Source: Fervidobacterium pennivorans DSM 9078
Lineage (GTDB): Bacteria; Thermotogota; Thermotogae; Thermotogales; Fervidobacteriaceae
Assembly: GCF_000235405.2 (NCBI RefSeq)
Contig: NC_017095.1
Span: 186,001-250,000 of the forward strand
DNA: 64,000 bases
Direction of reading: 5' to 3'
The first letter of the stretch is position 1. The number at the start of each line of letters is the position of its first letter. The notes under the pieces are model-generated. The model saw nothing but the letters and a program-made list of their open reading frames with translations. It had not been told where the DNA came from and made no database searches. Shown here one piece after another: positions 47,107 to 52,438 of this stretch. Made by a program: the position numbers and the translations under genes.

Positions 47107-48167
47107 GGATAGTGTTAACTTGTAGTGATGAAAGAGTGTAAGTGTGAAAGAATGCAATTGATATTGCCATTGTGTGTTTTCCAAAGATTCTTCACTACAC
47201 AAAAGCCTTGAATGTATTTTGCTAAATTCTTCGTATTCTTCAGCCCTCGCTTGAGTCGGAAAAAGTCTTTCAACAATGAAAACTTAGATTCACATTGATT
47301 GTTTTTACCGAGCGGTACCACTACGTGATTGATATTTCTGAACAACAGCTTTACTGCACTTTCATATGCACCAAGTCCATCAGTAATAAGTTCAATGCTT
47401 TTAGGTTCTAAATTACCAAAGAACTTCTCGAGCAATACTTTGACTTGTCCCATATCACGGTACTTTGAGACATGCCAACAAAGGATAAAGTTAGTTTCAT
47501 GATCGACTAATAGCCAAACATAGTACTTTTGTTCTTTGAACACAAGAACAGTTTCATCAGCATGAACTGAGAAAACATTTTCGATGGTAAATGTTGGGAA
47601 AAGTACAGAGAATAAAGTACACAATCTAATAACCCATTTGTATATGGTGACATGAGATACTTTGATATTAAGAGAATGAGCAAGAGAGCGATAAGACATA
47701 TTGTGTTTCATATACAAAACGAAAGCTTTTAAGATGAAGTAGATAGGGAAGCGGAAATATTTAAATTTCTCAGGAATAAGTGAGACTGGTTCAGGAAGGT
47801 TAAAAGGAACTCTATCTTTTGTACGACAAGCTCTACAACGGAAGACAACGAAAGAGCGACGGACTTTGTGAATTTCCATAGCTTTACCACAAGAAGAGCA
47901 TTTGGGATATGGGAAAGGAAAGTTTTTGCGTTTTTGAGAATGGGAAAGTTTGAAGGAATGATGGCAGAGTTTGCAAAGGAATTGTTGGTTACCGTATTTG
48001 TCGTGACCGTTTTTGTATAGGCTGGTGGAACCGCATTTTGGACAAGAGAGTGTTGAGTTGTTCATATCGGGATACCTCCTTTGTCGAGAGTTGGTTGGGG
48101 GGTGTCCCCTCTTTATAAGGATAATGCGGTTTTTGGAAAGTTTCAATACTTTTAGTTAACATTATCC
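47107..48167 (-). mobile_element. Complete insertion sequence, about 1.06 kb
   Basis: The ends carry an inverted repeat: GGATAGTGTTAACT (47107-47120) and, read inward from the right, GGATAATGTTAACT (48167-48154), 13 of 14 matching. A 6-bp duplication TTTAGA flanks the element. One intact transposase gene fills it on the minus strand. The intact ends and gene point to a recent insertion. The transposase resembles IS6/IS240-type DDE enzymes, but those usually make 8-bp duplications, so the family is not settled. Confidence 0.85.
47115..48065 (-). CDS. DDE transposase with N-terminal zinc ribbons
   Basis: About 316 residues from ATG 48065, which follows AAAGGAGG by about nine bases. The N-terminus has two zinc-ribbon-like Cys sets (CPKCGSTSLYKNG with CKLC, then CSSCGKAM with CRAC) and then a DNA-binding helical part (MSYRSLAHSLNIKVSHVTIY). 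The catalytic core has Asp in HADETVLVF, Asp in LITDGLGAYESA and Glu in NNQCESKFSLLKDFF. That fits an IS6/IS240-like DDE domain. It is intact, so the element may be active. Confidence 0.88.
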   Translation of the reverse strand: MNNSTLSCPKCGSTSLYKNGHDKYGNQQFLCKLCHHSFKLSHSQKRKNFPFPYPKCSSCGKAMEIHKVRRSFVVFRCRACRTKDRVPFNLPEPVSLIPEKFKYFRFPIYFILKAFVLYMKHNMSYRSLAHSLNIKVSHVTIYKWVIRLCTLFSVLFPTFTIENVFSVHADETVLVFKEQKYYVWLLVDHETNFILCWHVSKYRDMGQVKVLLEKFFGNLEPKSIELITDGLGAYESAVKLLFRNINHVVVPLGKNNQCESKFSLLKDFFRLKRGLKNTKNLAKYIQGFCVVKNLWKTHNGNINCILSHLHSFITTS

Positions 48168-48989: not shown

Positions 48990-49712
48990 TTAGAAGCTTC
49001 CCACATATGATGTAAGTATACGCTGTATTGTTCCATTTGATACGAGTTTGGAGATTGCATCATTCAGTTTTTTCTCTAAAGAGCTGTTTAGCAGAACTGC
49101 ACCTATATTAGTGGAGTAAATCAAATCTTTGTGAACTTGGAAACCATATTTTTTCGATAGATACAAAGCGTTGATATAATCAAAGAACGCACCATCTATT
49201 TTTTTAATGAGTAGGTTAATCACAATTTCCTCGTTTGATACAAACGTCGAGTATTTTATCTTTTTGCCAGATTTGACCCAATCTCTAACAATTCTCTCAC
49301 CGGTGCTGCCTTTCTTTACCCCAAAAGTGATTTTTTCGATATCTCCGTCCCACTTGATGTCTTTTCTGAGCACTATCGCAAGTCCTGAATTAATGTAAGG
49401 TTGGGTGAATTTGAAGACTTTTTTTCTTTCATCGGTCATATGGATTCCACCGGCTATTACATCCAAACCGAGTTTTGGAAGTACCGCAGCGTCAAGCACA
49501 GAGAATGGTAACACGTAAAACTCCACTTGCATATTCAACTCGGTTCCAATAGCCCGCCAAATGTCGTATTCTATTCCAGAAAGCTTGATGGAAAGCCAAT
49601 ACGCGTATGGTTCACCTAATAAAAGTCCTATTTTTAGAAATTGGCCAAAAGTATATATGGAAATTAATAAAATTGCTAAGAGTAATATAGCGACAGCATT
49701 TTTTATTGTCAC
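48990..49712 (-). CDS. Family 3 solute-binding protein (amino-acid type), orphan
   Basis: 240 residues. An N-terminal hydrophobic segment (about 5-24) with no Cys acts as a signal peptide or anchor. The SBP_bac_3 fold is seen in VLDAAVLPKLGLDVIAGGIHMTDERKK (split over residues 72-98) and FTQPYINSGLAIVLRK. Members bind polar amino acids or act as sensor domains. The GTG start at 49712 follows GGGGGTG. No permease or ATPase gene is adjacent, so transport partners are unknown. Confidence 0.85.
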   Translation of the reverse strand: MTIKNAVAILLLAILLISIYTFGQFLKIGLLLGEPYAYWLSIKLSGIEYDIWRAIGTELNMQVEFYVLPFSVLDAAVLPKLGLDVIAGGIHMTDERKKVFKFTQPYINSGLAIVLRKDIKWDGDIEKITFGVKKGSTGERIVRDWVKSGKKIKYSTFVSNEEIVINLLIKKIDGAFFDYINALYLSKKYGFQVHKDLIYSTNIGAVLLNSSLEKKLNDAISKLVSNGTIQRILTSYVGSF

Positions 49713-49804
49713 TCACACACCCCCAGAATAAAGAACGTTTTTCCTTGTTCTGTAAGTTTAGACTATTTTACTAGTATTTTCGTTCAACTTTTTCAGTGTT
49801 CAAA

Positions 49805-49843
49805 AATTAAAGCCTCTGGGACGATTCATACTCCAGAGGCTTT
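49805..49843 (-). terminator. Intrinsic terminator after thiB
   Basis: On the minus strand AAAGCCTCTGG (49843-49833) pairs with CCAGAGGCTTT (49819-49809), 13-base loop, followed by AATTTTTG. T's also follow on the plus strand. Confidence 0.8.
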
Positions 49844-49871
49844 TTAATTGCCATAATTTTTTAGTTTTTCG

Positions 49872-50855
49872 TTATCCAACCACAGCTTTTTCCCATTTTC
49901 TGAGTATTTCGTCCAACCTATCGTTAACGGTTGGGTTAAGTCTCAGTATTTTGTTAACAGGTGGTACGTATTTGTATACTTCCGGTAGCTGAACATCGAT
50001 AACAGGGAACATCCACTGGTTCAGTGGTACTTCCTTTTGGAAATCCGGGGTGAGCATGAACTCTATGAATGCCCTCGCAAGTGCCAAGTTCTTTGCGCCC
50101 TTTACGATAGCTGCGTATTCCTCGAGCACGTACGCACCTTCCTCAAATATTATAGGCATGTACTTGATTGTGCCGTATTTGTACATACTGTAAGCACCAT
50201 CTGTTGCATAACTCACTATCATGTCTGCTTCGCCTGTTTCGAGCATTTTGAATGCTGCGCTCCATCCACTTGTAAATGTCAATACGTTTTTCTTGACTTC
50301 TTTCCAAAAGTCCATTGCACCGTCTTCTCCAAGTGCAGCAATGGTCCACATCAGGAATGTTAAACCCGTGCTGGAGGTTCTTGGGTCGATAAGCACGAAC
50401 TTGCCTTTGTATTCGGGTTTCAAAAGGTCTTTGAAAGATTTTGGAGGATTCTTTATCTTTTCGATGTTGTAAATCATCGCCAAAGCTCCGTAGTCGTAGA
50501 CTGTTCCGTAGTCGTTAATGAAGCCTTTGTAGACAAGATTTTTCGAATTGGTAGCACGATACTTTTGCAACAAGTTCTCTTTTATCGCTTTTTGAAGCTG
50601 TTGAGGATTTAAACCGATGACAACATCAGCCTTAGGTGCGTTCTTTTCTGCAATAAGTCTTGCTAAAACGTCTCCCATAGAACCAAAACTAATAACTCTA
50701 ACTTTACACTTGTACATCTGCTCGAATTTCGGAATGACAACCTTTGCTATTCCACCCGCAAAACTATCAGATGTGTAAATAACAAGCTCTGCGGAAAACA
50801 CAAAAACCGTTGTTGTCAGCAAAAAGAAAACCGTTAACTTAAGCAATCCTTTCAT
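49872..50855 (-). CDS. thiB: Thiamine ABC transporter substrate-binding protein ThiB-like
   Basis: 327 residues with a cleavable signal peptide (about 1-21, ending FVFSA). The protein has ELVIYTSDSFAGGIAKVVIP, GLNPQQLQKAIKENL and FTSGWSAAFKMLETGEADMIVSYATDGAY (last over residues 207-235), characteristic of the ThiB/TbpA group. The TPP riboswitch and terminator directly upstream support thiamine as ligand. The permease and ATPase genes that usually follow are absent; a terminator comes instead, so this is an orphan binding protein in this window. Confidence 0.92.
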   Translation of the reverse strand: MKGLLKLTVFFLLTTTVFVFSAELVIYTSDSFAGGIAKVVIPKFEQMYKCKVRVISFGSMGDVLARLIAEKNAPKADVVIGLNPQQLQKAIKENLLQKYRATNSKNLVYKGFINDYGTVYDYGALAMIYNIEKIKNPPKSFKDLLKPEYKGKFVLIDPRTSSTGLTFLMWTIAALGEDGAMDFWKEVKKNVLTFTSGWSAAFKMLETGEADMIVSYATDGAYSMYKYGTIKYMPIIFEEGAYVLEEYAAIVKGAKNLALARAFIEFMLTPDFQKEVPLNQWMFPVIDVQLPEVYKYVPPVNKILRLNPTVNDRLDEILRKWEKAVVG

Positions 50856-50890
50856 GTTAGTCCCTCCTTCTTAAAGTGTGAGTATTTTTA

Positions 50891-50937
50891 AAATAAAAAA
50901 TCCCTCCGCTTTTGTGTTTTCAACTAAGCGGAGGGAT
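50891..50937 (-). terminator. Riboswitch-controlled intrinsic terminator upstream of thiB
   Basis: On the minus strand ATCCCTCCGCTT (50937-50926) pairs perfectly with AAGCGGAGGGAT (50911-50900), and T's follow (50899-50896, then TATTT). It lies between the aptamer and the thiB ribosome binding site. Confidence 0.88.
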
Positions 50938-50977
50938 GGTCTAAAAGGTTTTTTATTATTTACCGTCTTATCCTGAT

Positions 50978-51074
50978 TCCTGGTCCCTCCGCCGGTATTA
51001 CCCGGATCAGGTTCGAAGGGTCGGGAACTTGGCGTTCCCCTCTCAGCCCCGCATTCAGGAGCTCCCCTCCAGGA
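50978..51074 (-). promoter_or_regulatory. TPP riboswitch (THI element)
   Basis: Read on the minus strand: P1 arms TCCTGG (51074-51069) and CCAGGA (50983-50978), the conserved GGGGCTGAGAGG (around 51054-51043), ACCCTTCGAACCTGAT (51020-51005) and the pyrophosphate-sensing GCGGAGGGA (50992-50984). All landmarks of the class are in order. GCGGAGGGA is the same nine bases as the 3' arm of the terminator below, so its 5' arm can pair with either: free aptamer allows antitermination, bound aptamer releases the terminator. Confidence 0.95.
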
Positions 51075-51098
51075 TATAGGAAATATGTTTTCAAAGGT

Positions 51099-51127
51099 AT
51101 TATAACATGCTTTTAAGTTTTAATCAA
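51099..51127 (-). promoter_or_regulatory. Promoter of the TPP riboswitch / thiB transcript
   Basis: On the minus strand TTGATT (51127-51122), 17-base spacer, TATAAT (51104-51099). The start would be about 15-20 bases before the aptamer. Confidence 0.8.
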
Positions 51128-51256
51128 GGGAATATAATTATTGGTTCCGAAGATCCTGATATAATTACTATAACGATTGAAGTAATGATAAATCGGCGAG
51201 GATTGGCAATACGAAAAAGAGGAGTTATATCAAGTTTTTTATGGAGGGAACAAAAA

Positions 51257-52438
51257 GTGCCTGGACAGAGAGTTTTTCACAAGTATCATTTTCTTTCATT
51301 TGTAATCTCTATTCAAGCGTACCTTTACAGCACTTATATAAACTCAACTGCTGCAAAATTGGGTTTTTCTTTCACTCAAATAGGTCTTGTTAACCTTATT
51401 TTATCCATAGCCTACGCAATAGCAAGCGTAACTTTGGGACACATCGGAACAAGATACGGATACAAAAGGACAATATCTTTTTTAGCTGTATATCTTTTTA
51501 TTGTCTCAATGTTCGGATTTTTTGCTAACAACCCTAAACGTTTGGTCATTTTTGCGGTTCTCCAAGGTGCCTTTTTTGGGGCATTCTTTCCACAAGTTGA
51601 AGGATTGATTGCTAAGTCTGAAAGCTTACTGAGAGTAGACCCACCATCGATAACAGGCAGGTTCACATTGTCTTGGAGCACGGGAAACATGATCGGGGTT
51701 GCGTTTGGCCCTTTTCTTACCGTAAGAGTGCCAAGTGCCGTATTTATAACGGGTTTAATAATCTCGGGTCTGACAAGTCTGTGGGTCTTTTTAGACTACA
51801 AAAAGTTTGGGGATGTCATTACGTTTACACCTTACAGAAAACTTCTTGAGCATTCTCGGAATTCATCCGTTGTTATGAACAAAAATATGATGAAGAAACT
51901 CAGTTTGGAATACAGAATTATTCTATTCCTTGGTGGTTTGATTTACACATCTGTTTTGGCTAGTTTTCCTAAGTTGATGATGCTTGCCGGGCTGAAGTTG
52001 GAAAATGCGGGTTTTTTAACTGTAGGAGCAAATATAGGAGTTGTGCTCATTTTTGGTATTTTGCAGTCTTGGAAAGGCTGGGTAGGAAACGAATATGTTT
52101 GTGGCATACTTTTGTCGGTTGTTCCAATAACAGGATTAATAGCATTTTTTGCCAAAAACCCTTTAATGTTCTTCCTTACAGCGTTGTTTGCAGGTTTTAG
52201 TTACGCTGTCCCGTATACGTTTGCCATATTCTACGGACTTTTGTCAGAGGAAGAAGCGCACGGCAAACAAGGGGCTTTGCATGAAATGGTTATTGGACTT
52301 TTGTTCGGCGTAGGTCCGCTTATTGGAGGAGTATTGTTTGACAACTTCGGGGGAAATTTAGGTTTGTTAGTTTACGCGTTTTCAATAAGTGCTGCTATAT
52401 ACCTTATTCAACTGCTTTTTAATTTTTCAAGAAAATAG
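51257..52438 (+). CDS. MFS transporter
   Basis: 393 residues from GTG 51257, which follows GGAGGG by eight bases. An open reading from 51107 extends upstream into the thiB promoter and adds a poor N-terminus. There are about 12 hydrophobic helices, with a typical MFS loop after helix 2 (GTRYGYKRTISFL) and a long central loop (about 205-235). The substrate is unknown. It diverges from the thiB riboswitch and converges with the MATE gene. Transport of a thiamine precursor is possible by position only. Confidence 0.85.
   Translation: MPGQRVFHKYHFLSFVISIQAYLYSTYINSTAAKLGFSFTQIGLVNLILSIAYAIASVTLGHIGTRYGYKRTISFLAVYLFIVSMFGFFANNPKRLVIFAVLQGAFFGAFFPQVEGLIAKSESLLRVDPPSITGRFTLSWSTGNMIGVAFGPFLTVRVPSAVFITGLIISGLTSLWVFLDYKKFGDVITFTPYRKLLEHSRNSSVVMNKNMMKKLSLEYRIILFLGGLIYTSVLASFPKLMMLAGLKLENAGFLTVGANIGVVLIFGILQSWKGWVGNEYVCGILLSVVPITGLIAFFAKNPLMFFLTALFAGFSYAVPYTFAIFYGLLSEEEAHGKQGALHEMVIGLLFGVGPLIGGVLFDNFGGNLGLLVYAFSISAAIYLIQLLFNFSRK

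Follow-up and report, generated by a model that had tools for sequence, protein, structure and literature searches.

A candidate TPP riboswitch of Fervidobacterium pennivorans whose terminator arm is complementary to the ligand-binding core

Which strand of a TPP aptamer does a terminator arm compete for when it controls a thiamine-uptake gene? The question is raised by a leader of Fervidobacterium pennivorans DSM 9078, a thermophilic member of the Fervidobacteriaceae (Thermotogales), in which nine bases of the aptamer recur in the terminator. The leader lies on the minus strand of a 64,000-nucleotide stretch of the chromosome (NC_017095.1, positions 186,001 to 250,000), which we call the window and whose first letter is position 1. 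Our analysis, which leans on folding calculations, suggests that the locus very probably controls a thiamine-uptake gene as a TPP-responsive transcriptional OFF riboswitch, operating by strand exchange in which the core of the aptamer would be invaded. Taken alone, such a TPP OFF riboswitch is routine; what deserves a specialist's attention is that throughout the family the switching strand is predicted to have shifted into the ligand-binding core.

Both components that the original prediction placed at 50891-51074, a TPP aptamer and a terminator, are present (Table 1). The aptamer matches RF00059 over the full length of the model with 81.9 bits, above the gathering score of 54.3 bits, and a thiamine-uptake gene lies downstream, its product reaching 248.7 bits with TIGR01254 (cut-off 93.4). 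With the thiB equivalog model, which is narrower, the score of 191.7 stays under the cut-off of 317.15; the protein is also encoded in two Fervidobacterium records at 75 and 79% identity. Between aptamer and gene stands an intrinsic terminator, a stem of 11 pairs (50936-50926 with 50911-50901) that closes a 14-base loop and is followed by TTTTTTATTT. The consensus scan reported no terminator here; its loop limit is 8 bases, and the actual loop has 14. Promoter-like sites are no more numerous in the region than in shuffled sequence (2 observed, 2.1 in shuffles), so that the likely promoter is backed by its position and not by its score. We also considered the Shine-Dalgarno element at 50867-50861 as a possible translational layer of control and set it aside as an ordinary ribosome site, because AGGAGGGA-type sites occur in relatives as well: among the 32 family leaders listed, several are of this type and more are AGGAGGT-like.

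Table 1. Features of the leader and the gene that it precedes, in window coordinates
Feature	Position	Strand	Evidence
Likely promoter: TTGATT, 17-base spacer, TATAAT, TG before the -10	51099..51127	-	Consensus scan, 10/12 matches
TPP riboswitch aptamer (RF00059)	50967..51078	-	Rfam 81.9 bits, model positions 1-105
Aptamer copy of GCGGAGGGA, predicted antiterminator partner	50984..50992	-	Sequence, Rfam structure line, ensemble pairing with terminator 5′ arm
Terminator 5′ arm TCCCTCCGCTT, strand common to antiterminator and terminator	50926..50936	-	Sequence
Terminator 3′ arm AAGCGGAGGGA, contains second GCGGAGGGA (50909-50901)	50901..50911	-	Sequence; terminator stem in MFE fold
U tract TTTTTTATTT of intrinsic terminator	50891..50900	-	Sequence
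Shine-Dalgarno GGAGGGA of transporter gene, further copy of the 7-base part	50861..50867	-	Sequence
Regulated gene: thiamine ABC transporter substrate-binding protein (sfuA/ThiB-like)	49872..50855	-	TIGR01254 248.7 bits

The repeated sequence was located correctly from the outset: GCGGAGGGA stands at 50992-50984 in the aptamer and again at 50909-50901 in the 3′ arm of the terminator, and the 5′ arm, through its portion TCCCTCCGC (50936-50928), complements both copies, confirming that one arm could pair with either. The likeness of the two partners follows from this design of one arm with two partners. In the window GCGGAGGGA occurs three times, always here (in the aptamer, in the 3′ arm and, on the other strand, in the 5′ arm), against 0.20 expected, and none of 100 dinucleotide shuffles reached three copies. 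The 2.17-Mb genome holds nine occurrences, against two of the pattern read backwards; three are those described, one lies in the second TPP aptamer, two lie in genes for tRNA-Met and tRNA-Thr and three are elsewhere. The copies at genome positions 173326 and 173431 suggested a further leader of this kind and were rejected, as they belong to the two tRNA genes. A computed duplex between 5′ arm and aptamer comes to -20.8 kcal/mol, compared with a mean of -13.9 for 200 shuffles of the arm (p 0.03). Since GCGGAGGGA is the norm for the aptamers of the family (33 of 34 loci), the terminator arm is the telling part of the match.

According to the Rfam structure line, the nine bases consist of one P5 base, the CG junction, the four-base 3′ strand of P4 and the GA junction before P1; the first base of the P4 3′ strand faces a G here and does not form a pair. 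Residues of the P4/P5 arm of the TPP aptamer bind the pyrophosphate, with a C and the G that follows it contacting the beta-phosphate directly (PMC6414600). By sequence correspondence, these two contacts would be C50991 and G50990. Thus the proposal that the same nine bases serve both ligand binding and antitermination needs dividing: pairing with the terminator arm is supported by the ensemble calculations that follow, and a role for all nine as ligand contacts is not.

Our folding model excludes tertiary contacts and the ligand. Before the 3′ arm has been made, C50991-A50988 are paired with the terminator arm in 0.90 of the ligand-free ensemble at 37 °C and 0.72 at 65 °C, and the antiterminator ensemble lies below that of the native aptamer by 4.2 (37 °C) and 4.9 (65 °C) kcal/mol. 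Comparison of best single structures at this stage leaves the antiterminator a narrower margin, 1.8 kcal/mol at 37 °C and 0.8 at 65 °C; with just the 5′ arm complete the native best structure at 65 °C is 0.7 kcal/mol lower than the antiterminator. Thus, by computation, the alternative helix expected of an OFF switch is favored in the ligand-free transcript at the stage when the terminator has yet to be completed. With the 3′ arm finished, native aptamer plus terminator falls below the antiterminator by 8.5 (37 °C), 4.5 (65 °C) and 1.2 (75 °C) kcal/mol, all from ensembles. In other words, the full-length RNA prefers the terminator in the model even without ligand, and the switch would therefore need kinetic control. 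The ligand-free MFE structure of the full leader is a misfolded aptamer.

These results fit the following scheme, in which we infer TPP binding, termination, the direction of control and the kinetics from sequence and folding. At low TPP, the nascent 5′ arm (50936-50928) would pair with GCGGAGGGA in the aptamer core (50992-50984), destroying the P4/junction part of the TPP pocket and withholding the arm from its 3′ partner, so that polymerase would read through. At high TPP, the folded aptamer would bury the core, the 5′ arm would pair with the copy in the 3′ arm, and transcription would stop at the U tract. The switching decision is probably kinetic: early binding of TPP, or its absence, would decide, and the outcome would be held kinetically. 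The strand invaded would be the CG junction and the 3′ strand of P4, and not the 3′ strand of P1. The original reading of the switch is supported as the best model of the locus, with the folding calculations arguing for it. It had also called this a very direct switch; one arm with two partners is the normal strand exchange of OFF riboswitches. The less usual feature, predicted invasion of the core in place of the P1 strand, went unremarked there.

If the arrangement is more than a property of one leader, it should be visible among relatives. We analyzed all 77 TPP loci found in 57 of 61 genomes (this one and 60 others), of which 34 loci from 19 genomes belong to the window's own family. A terminator-like hairpin follows all 34 by our final finder, which is loose (at least six pairs, four G-C pairs, five T in eight). 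An arm was scored as using the core when it paired with at least three of the four bases C77-A80, and as using P1 when it paired with at least four of the six P1 3′ bases; duplexes were computed with the 3′ part of the aptamer. The residue numbers C77-A84, including C77-A80, follow what we take to be the numbering of the thiM crystal structure. Bacilli served for comparison, reached through Paenibacillus dakarensis: matches occurred in 60 of 61 genomes (180 by per-genome count), from which 70 loci were taken, 30 as returned and 40 picked by hand down the list; one (L199) was dropped because it had a core that the motif in use did not cover, and 59 of the remaining 69 have a hairpin.

The two groups are predicted to place their arms differently. 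Family arms use C77-A80 in 31 of 34 loci by duplex and, by ensemble, in 25 (37 °C) or 26 (65 °C); in the Bacilli sample, 59 arms yield 7 such cases by duplex and 2 by ensemble. For the ensemble counts at 37 °C (25/34 against 2/59) Fisher's test gives p 5e-13, a value that treats the loci as independent and ignores their relatedness, with 29 different hairpins among the family loci. The nine family loci without the ensemble mark at 37 °C are L005, L006, L007, L010, L017, L023, L048, L060 and L066. The footprint of the family arms covers positions +1 to +6 from C77 at 0.94-0.97, with 0.53 at C77 itself and 0.71 at A84, whereas Bacilli arms peak at +12 (0.75). An older terminator finder missed some long stems, and our main counts come from the final one; with the older finder, and at least half of the arm required on a wider core window at 37 °C, the register appeared in 23 of 32 family loci, 0 of 63 Bacilli loci, and 10 of 14 and 1 of 13 loci in the two other families of the order, f2 and f3. 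The second TPP leader of this genome (L078 1989-5100, genome 679988-683099) has the same core-arm design with another loop and flank. Downstream of it lie genes for Thi4 and ThiC and an ORF of the AP_endonuc_2 type, and its aptamer is one of two TPP aptamers in the genome.

P1 is the usual switching helix of riboswitches generally, as one account has it (PMC2258182), and the arm might here too compete mainly with the 3′ strand of P1, its match to the core being incidental. Bacilli arms do fall on that strand, in 32 of 59 loci by duplex and 26 of 59 by ensemble (37 °C). At this locus, however, the arm's ensemble pairing with the six P1 3′ bases is 0.00 at both 37 and 65 °C, against 0.90 on C77-A80 at 37 °C, and only 5 of 34 family loci by duplex, and 1 of 34 by ensemble, pair there; we regard such a conventional switch as very unlikely. 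Similar doubt attaches to an antiterminator formed with the 5′ P1/P2 strand (UGGAGGG, 51071-51065), or to several apo folds sharing the work, an account that we think has little chance of being right. The unconstrained MFE structure at 65 °C, taken at the end of the 5′ arm, does pair the arm with 51071-51065, and that strand holds 0.06 of the arm at 37 °C and 0.17 at 65 °C. In addition, the terminator arms of two relatives, L030 and L048, best match GCAGGGGAG of the 5′ P1/P2 strand and not the 3′ core, on which ground we rejected core covariation in these two loci; their arms represent a further way to wire the same aptamer. Yet at this locus 0.73 of the arm at 37 °C, and 0.58 at 65 °C, lies on the core, and the family means are 0.63 and 0.57 for the core against 0.12 and 0.13 for the 5′ strand.

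It could also be argued that the terminator is a fixed, non-switching attenuator whose match with the aptamer arose by chance or was inherited with the sequence. The preference of the full-length model for the terminator with or without ligand would suit such an element, as would the way in which conflicts between the two pairings are settled. We had expected the pairing of arm with aptamer to be better kept than that of arm with terminator, and the opposite was found: where the two disagree in the core, the terminator pair is kept in 44 cells and the aptamer pair in 4 (49 Thermotogae loci, with G-U scored as not kept), and a hand count in the window's own family gives 16 against 2. This is partly expected because the terminator needs its stem; it nonetheless speaks against any strong claim of selection on the antiterminator. 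On the other side, of 23 terminator-like hairpins found in the window, the one here matches the aptamer by perfect complementarity over 9 nt, none of the remaining 22 exceeding 6 nt, and the core-arm match recurs in 31 of 34 family loci despite their 29 different hairpins. A fixed attenuator is, in our judgment, the least probable of these readings and hardly to be believed.

Invasion of the core, which we favor, has its limits. Within the family the core is so constant that compensatory change cannot be shown; L048, the sole locus with another core, does not use C77-A80. Over the three families of the order together, GGAGGGA is the core of 43 loci, 41 of which show core pairing by duplex, as do 2 of the 18 loci whose core differs. 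Among the seven Bacilli loci with the GGAGGGA core, two show it by duplex and none by ensemble. These counts indicate that the design tracks the G at a variable core position within the order, and that the core alone is not sufficient. With other cores in the order, pairing is mostly absent and for the most part is not restored by matching changes; L076, with core GCGTAGGGA and arm ACCCTACCT, is one locus where the two do match. At the base just 3′ of the core (24 loci), T lies opposite A or G in 14 of 15 cases and C opposite G in 3 of 7, the other two being one pair and one mismatch, a match that is only suggestive.

In the two other families of the order the picture is mixed. Core pairing is found in 4 of 14 f2 loci by duplex and 2 of 14 by ensemble, with exact 7-nt complements in 2 of 14; in f3 the duplex count is 8 of 13 and the ensemble count 0 of 13, with exact 7-nt complements in 8 of 13. 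At the level of the class, 3 of 14 loci have core pairing, whichever measure is used. A mixed outgroup, made up of Spirochaetes, distant Thermotogae and single representatives of other phyla, comprises 16 loci, 7 of them with a hairpin; L129 was left out as below the Rfam cut-off, and L108-L110, L124 and L125 as repeats of genomes already counted. Of these 7, core pairing is predicted in 4 by duplex and in none by ensemble.

The surroundings of the leader offer some observations of their own. On the minus strand, 48990-50855 holds the gene for the thiamine substrate-binding protein and then one for a family-3 substrate-binding protein; genes for a short-chain dehydrogenase and a thiolase follow on the other strand, and the same set occurs in the same order in another Fervidobacterium record (L081). 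A transposase ORF (DDE_Tnp_IS240; 47115-48146, minus strand) separates the dehydrogenase and thiolase genes, which adjoin in L081, and is a probable insertion. None of the four ORFs searched encodes an ABC permease or ATPase, and no ThiP permease in the genome exceeds its model's cut-off; there are two matches, both below it, the better being G000:C1:272971-273924. Divergently, an ORF for an MFS transporter (51107-52438, plus strand) has a listed start codon that overlaps the promoter region of the riboswitch; translation may really begin further inside the ORF.

Several accounts (PMC2258182, PMC10907184, PMC7237195) present the exchange of strands between an antiterminator and a terminator as the standard mechanism, and in principle the locus is textbook material; the choice of the invaded strand is less ordinary. 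Like the TPP (THI-box) OFF riboswitches of Bacillus subtilis tenA and Neisseria meningitidis thiC, which are reported to form their terminator on binding TPP (PMC7237195, PMC3280964), it combines an aptamer with a mutually exclusive antiterminator and intrinsic terminator. What differs from the N. meningitidis switch is the predicted antiterminator partner, here the CG junction and P4 3′ strand. A published landscape model of tenA and thiM also argues for kinetic control (PMC3280964). The TPP covariation model of Hertz et al. (2026, PMC13273304) likewise places a terminator hairpin after the aptamer; it has only two nucleotides in common to aptamer and platform, in contrast to the nine core bases predicted here. 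Its first alignment restricted the post-aptamer length to 40-45 nt, and other spacings may consequently be under-represented in the model. A parallel may lie in the eukaryotic TPP riboswitches that control splicing, in which a portion of P4-P5 pairs with the platform and is displaced when TPP binds (PMC2258182); their partner lies near a 5′ splice site, whereas here it is the arm of a bacterial terminator. In literature covered mostly at the level of abstracts, we found no description of a core-invading register in Thermotogae; the 2002 comparison of THI elements may contain one.

We thus seem to be dealing with a riboswitch of known kind that has a clade-specific switching register. We put at about even the chances of a generalization: in the Fervidobacterium family, TPP riboswitches would for the most part switch through invasion of the ligand-binding core, at the CG junction and P4 3′ strand, and leave P1 largely out. 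Such a register would be specific to the lineage, linked to the G at the variable core position, and parallel to P4-P5 switching in eukaryotes. If the generalization is true, bacterial lineages differ in the strand through which the same aptamer is wired to its terminators, and this family would supply a compact case in which the bases that hold the ligand also prevent termination. It would, in addition, allow one to test directly how the response depends on which strand is invaded, according to whether the arm competes with the bound ligand or with the outer stem.
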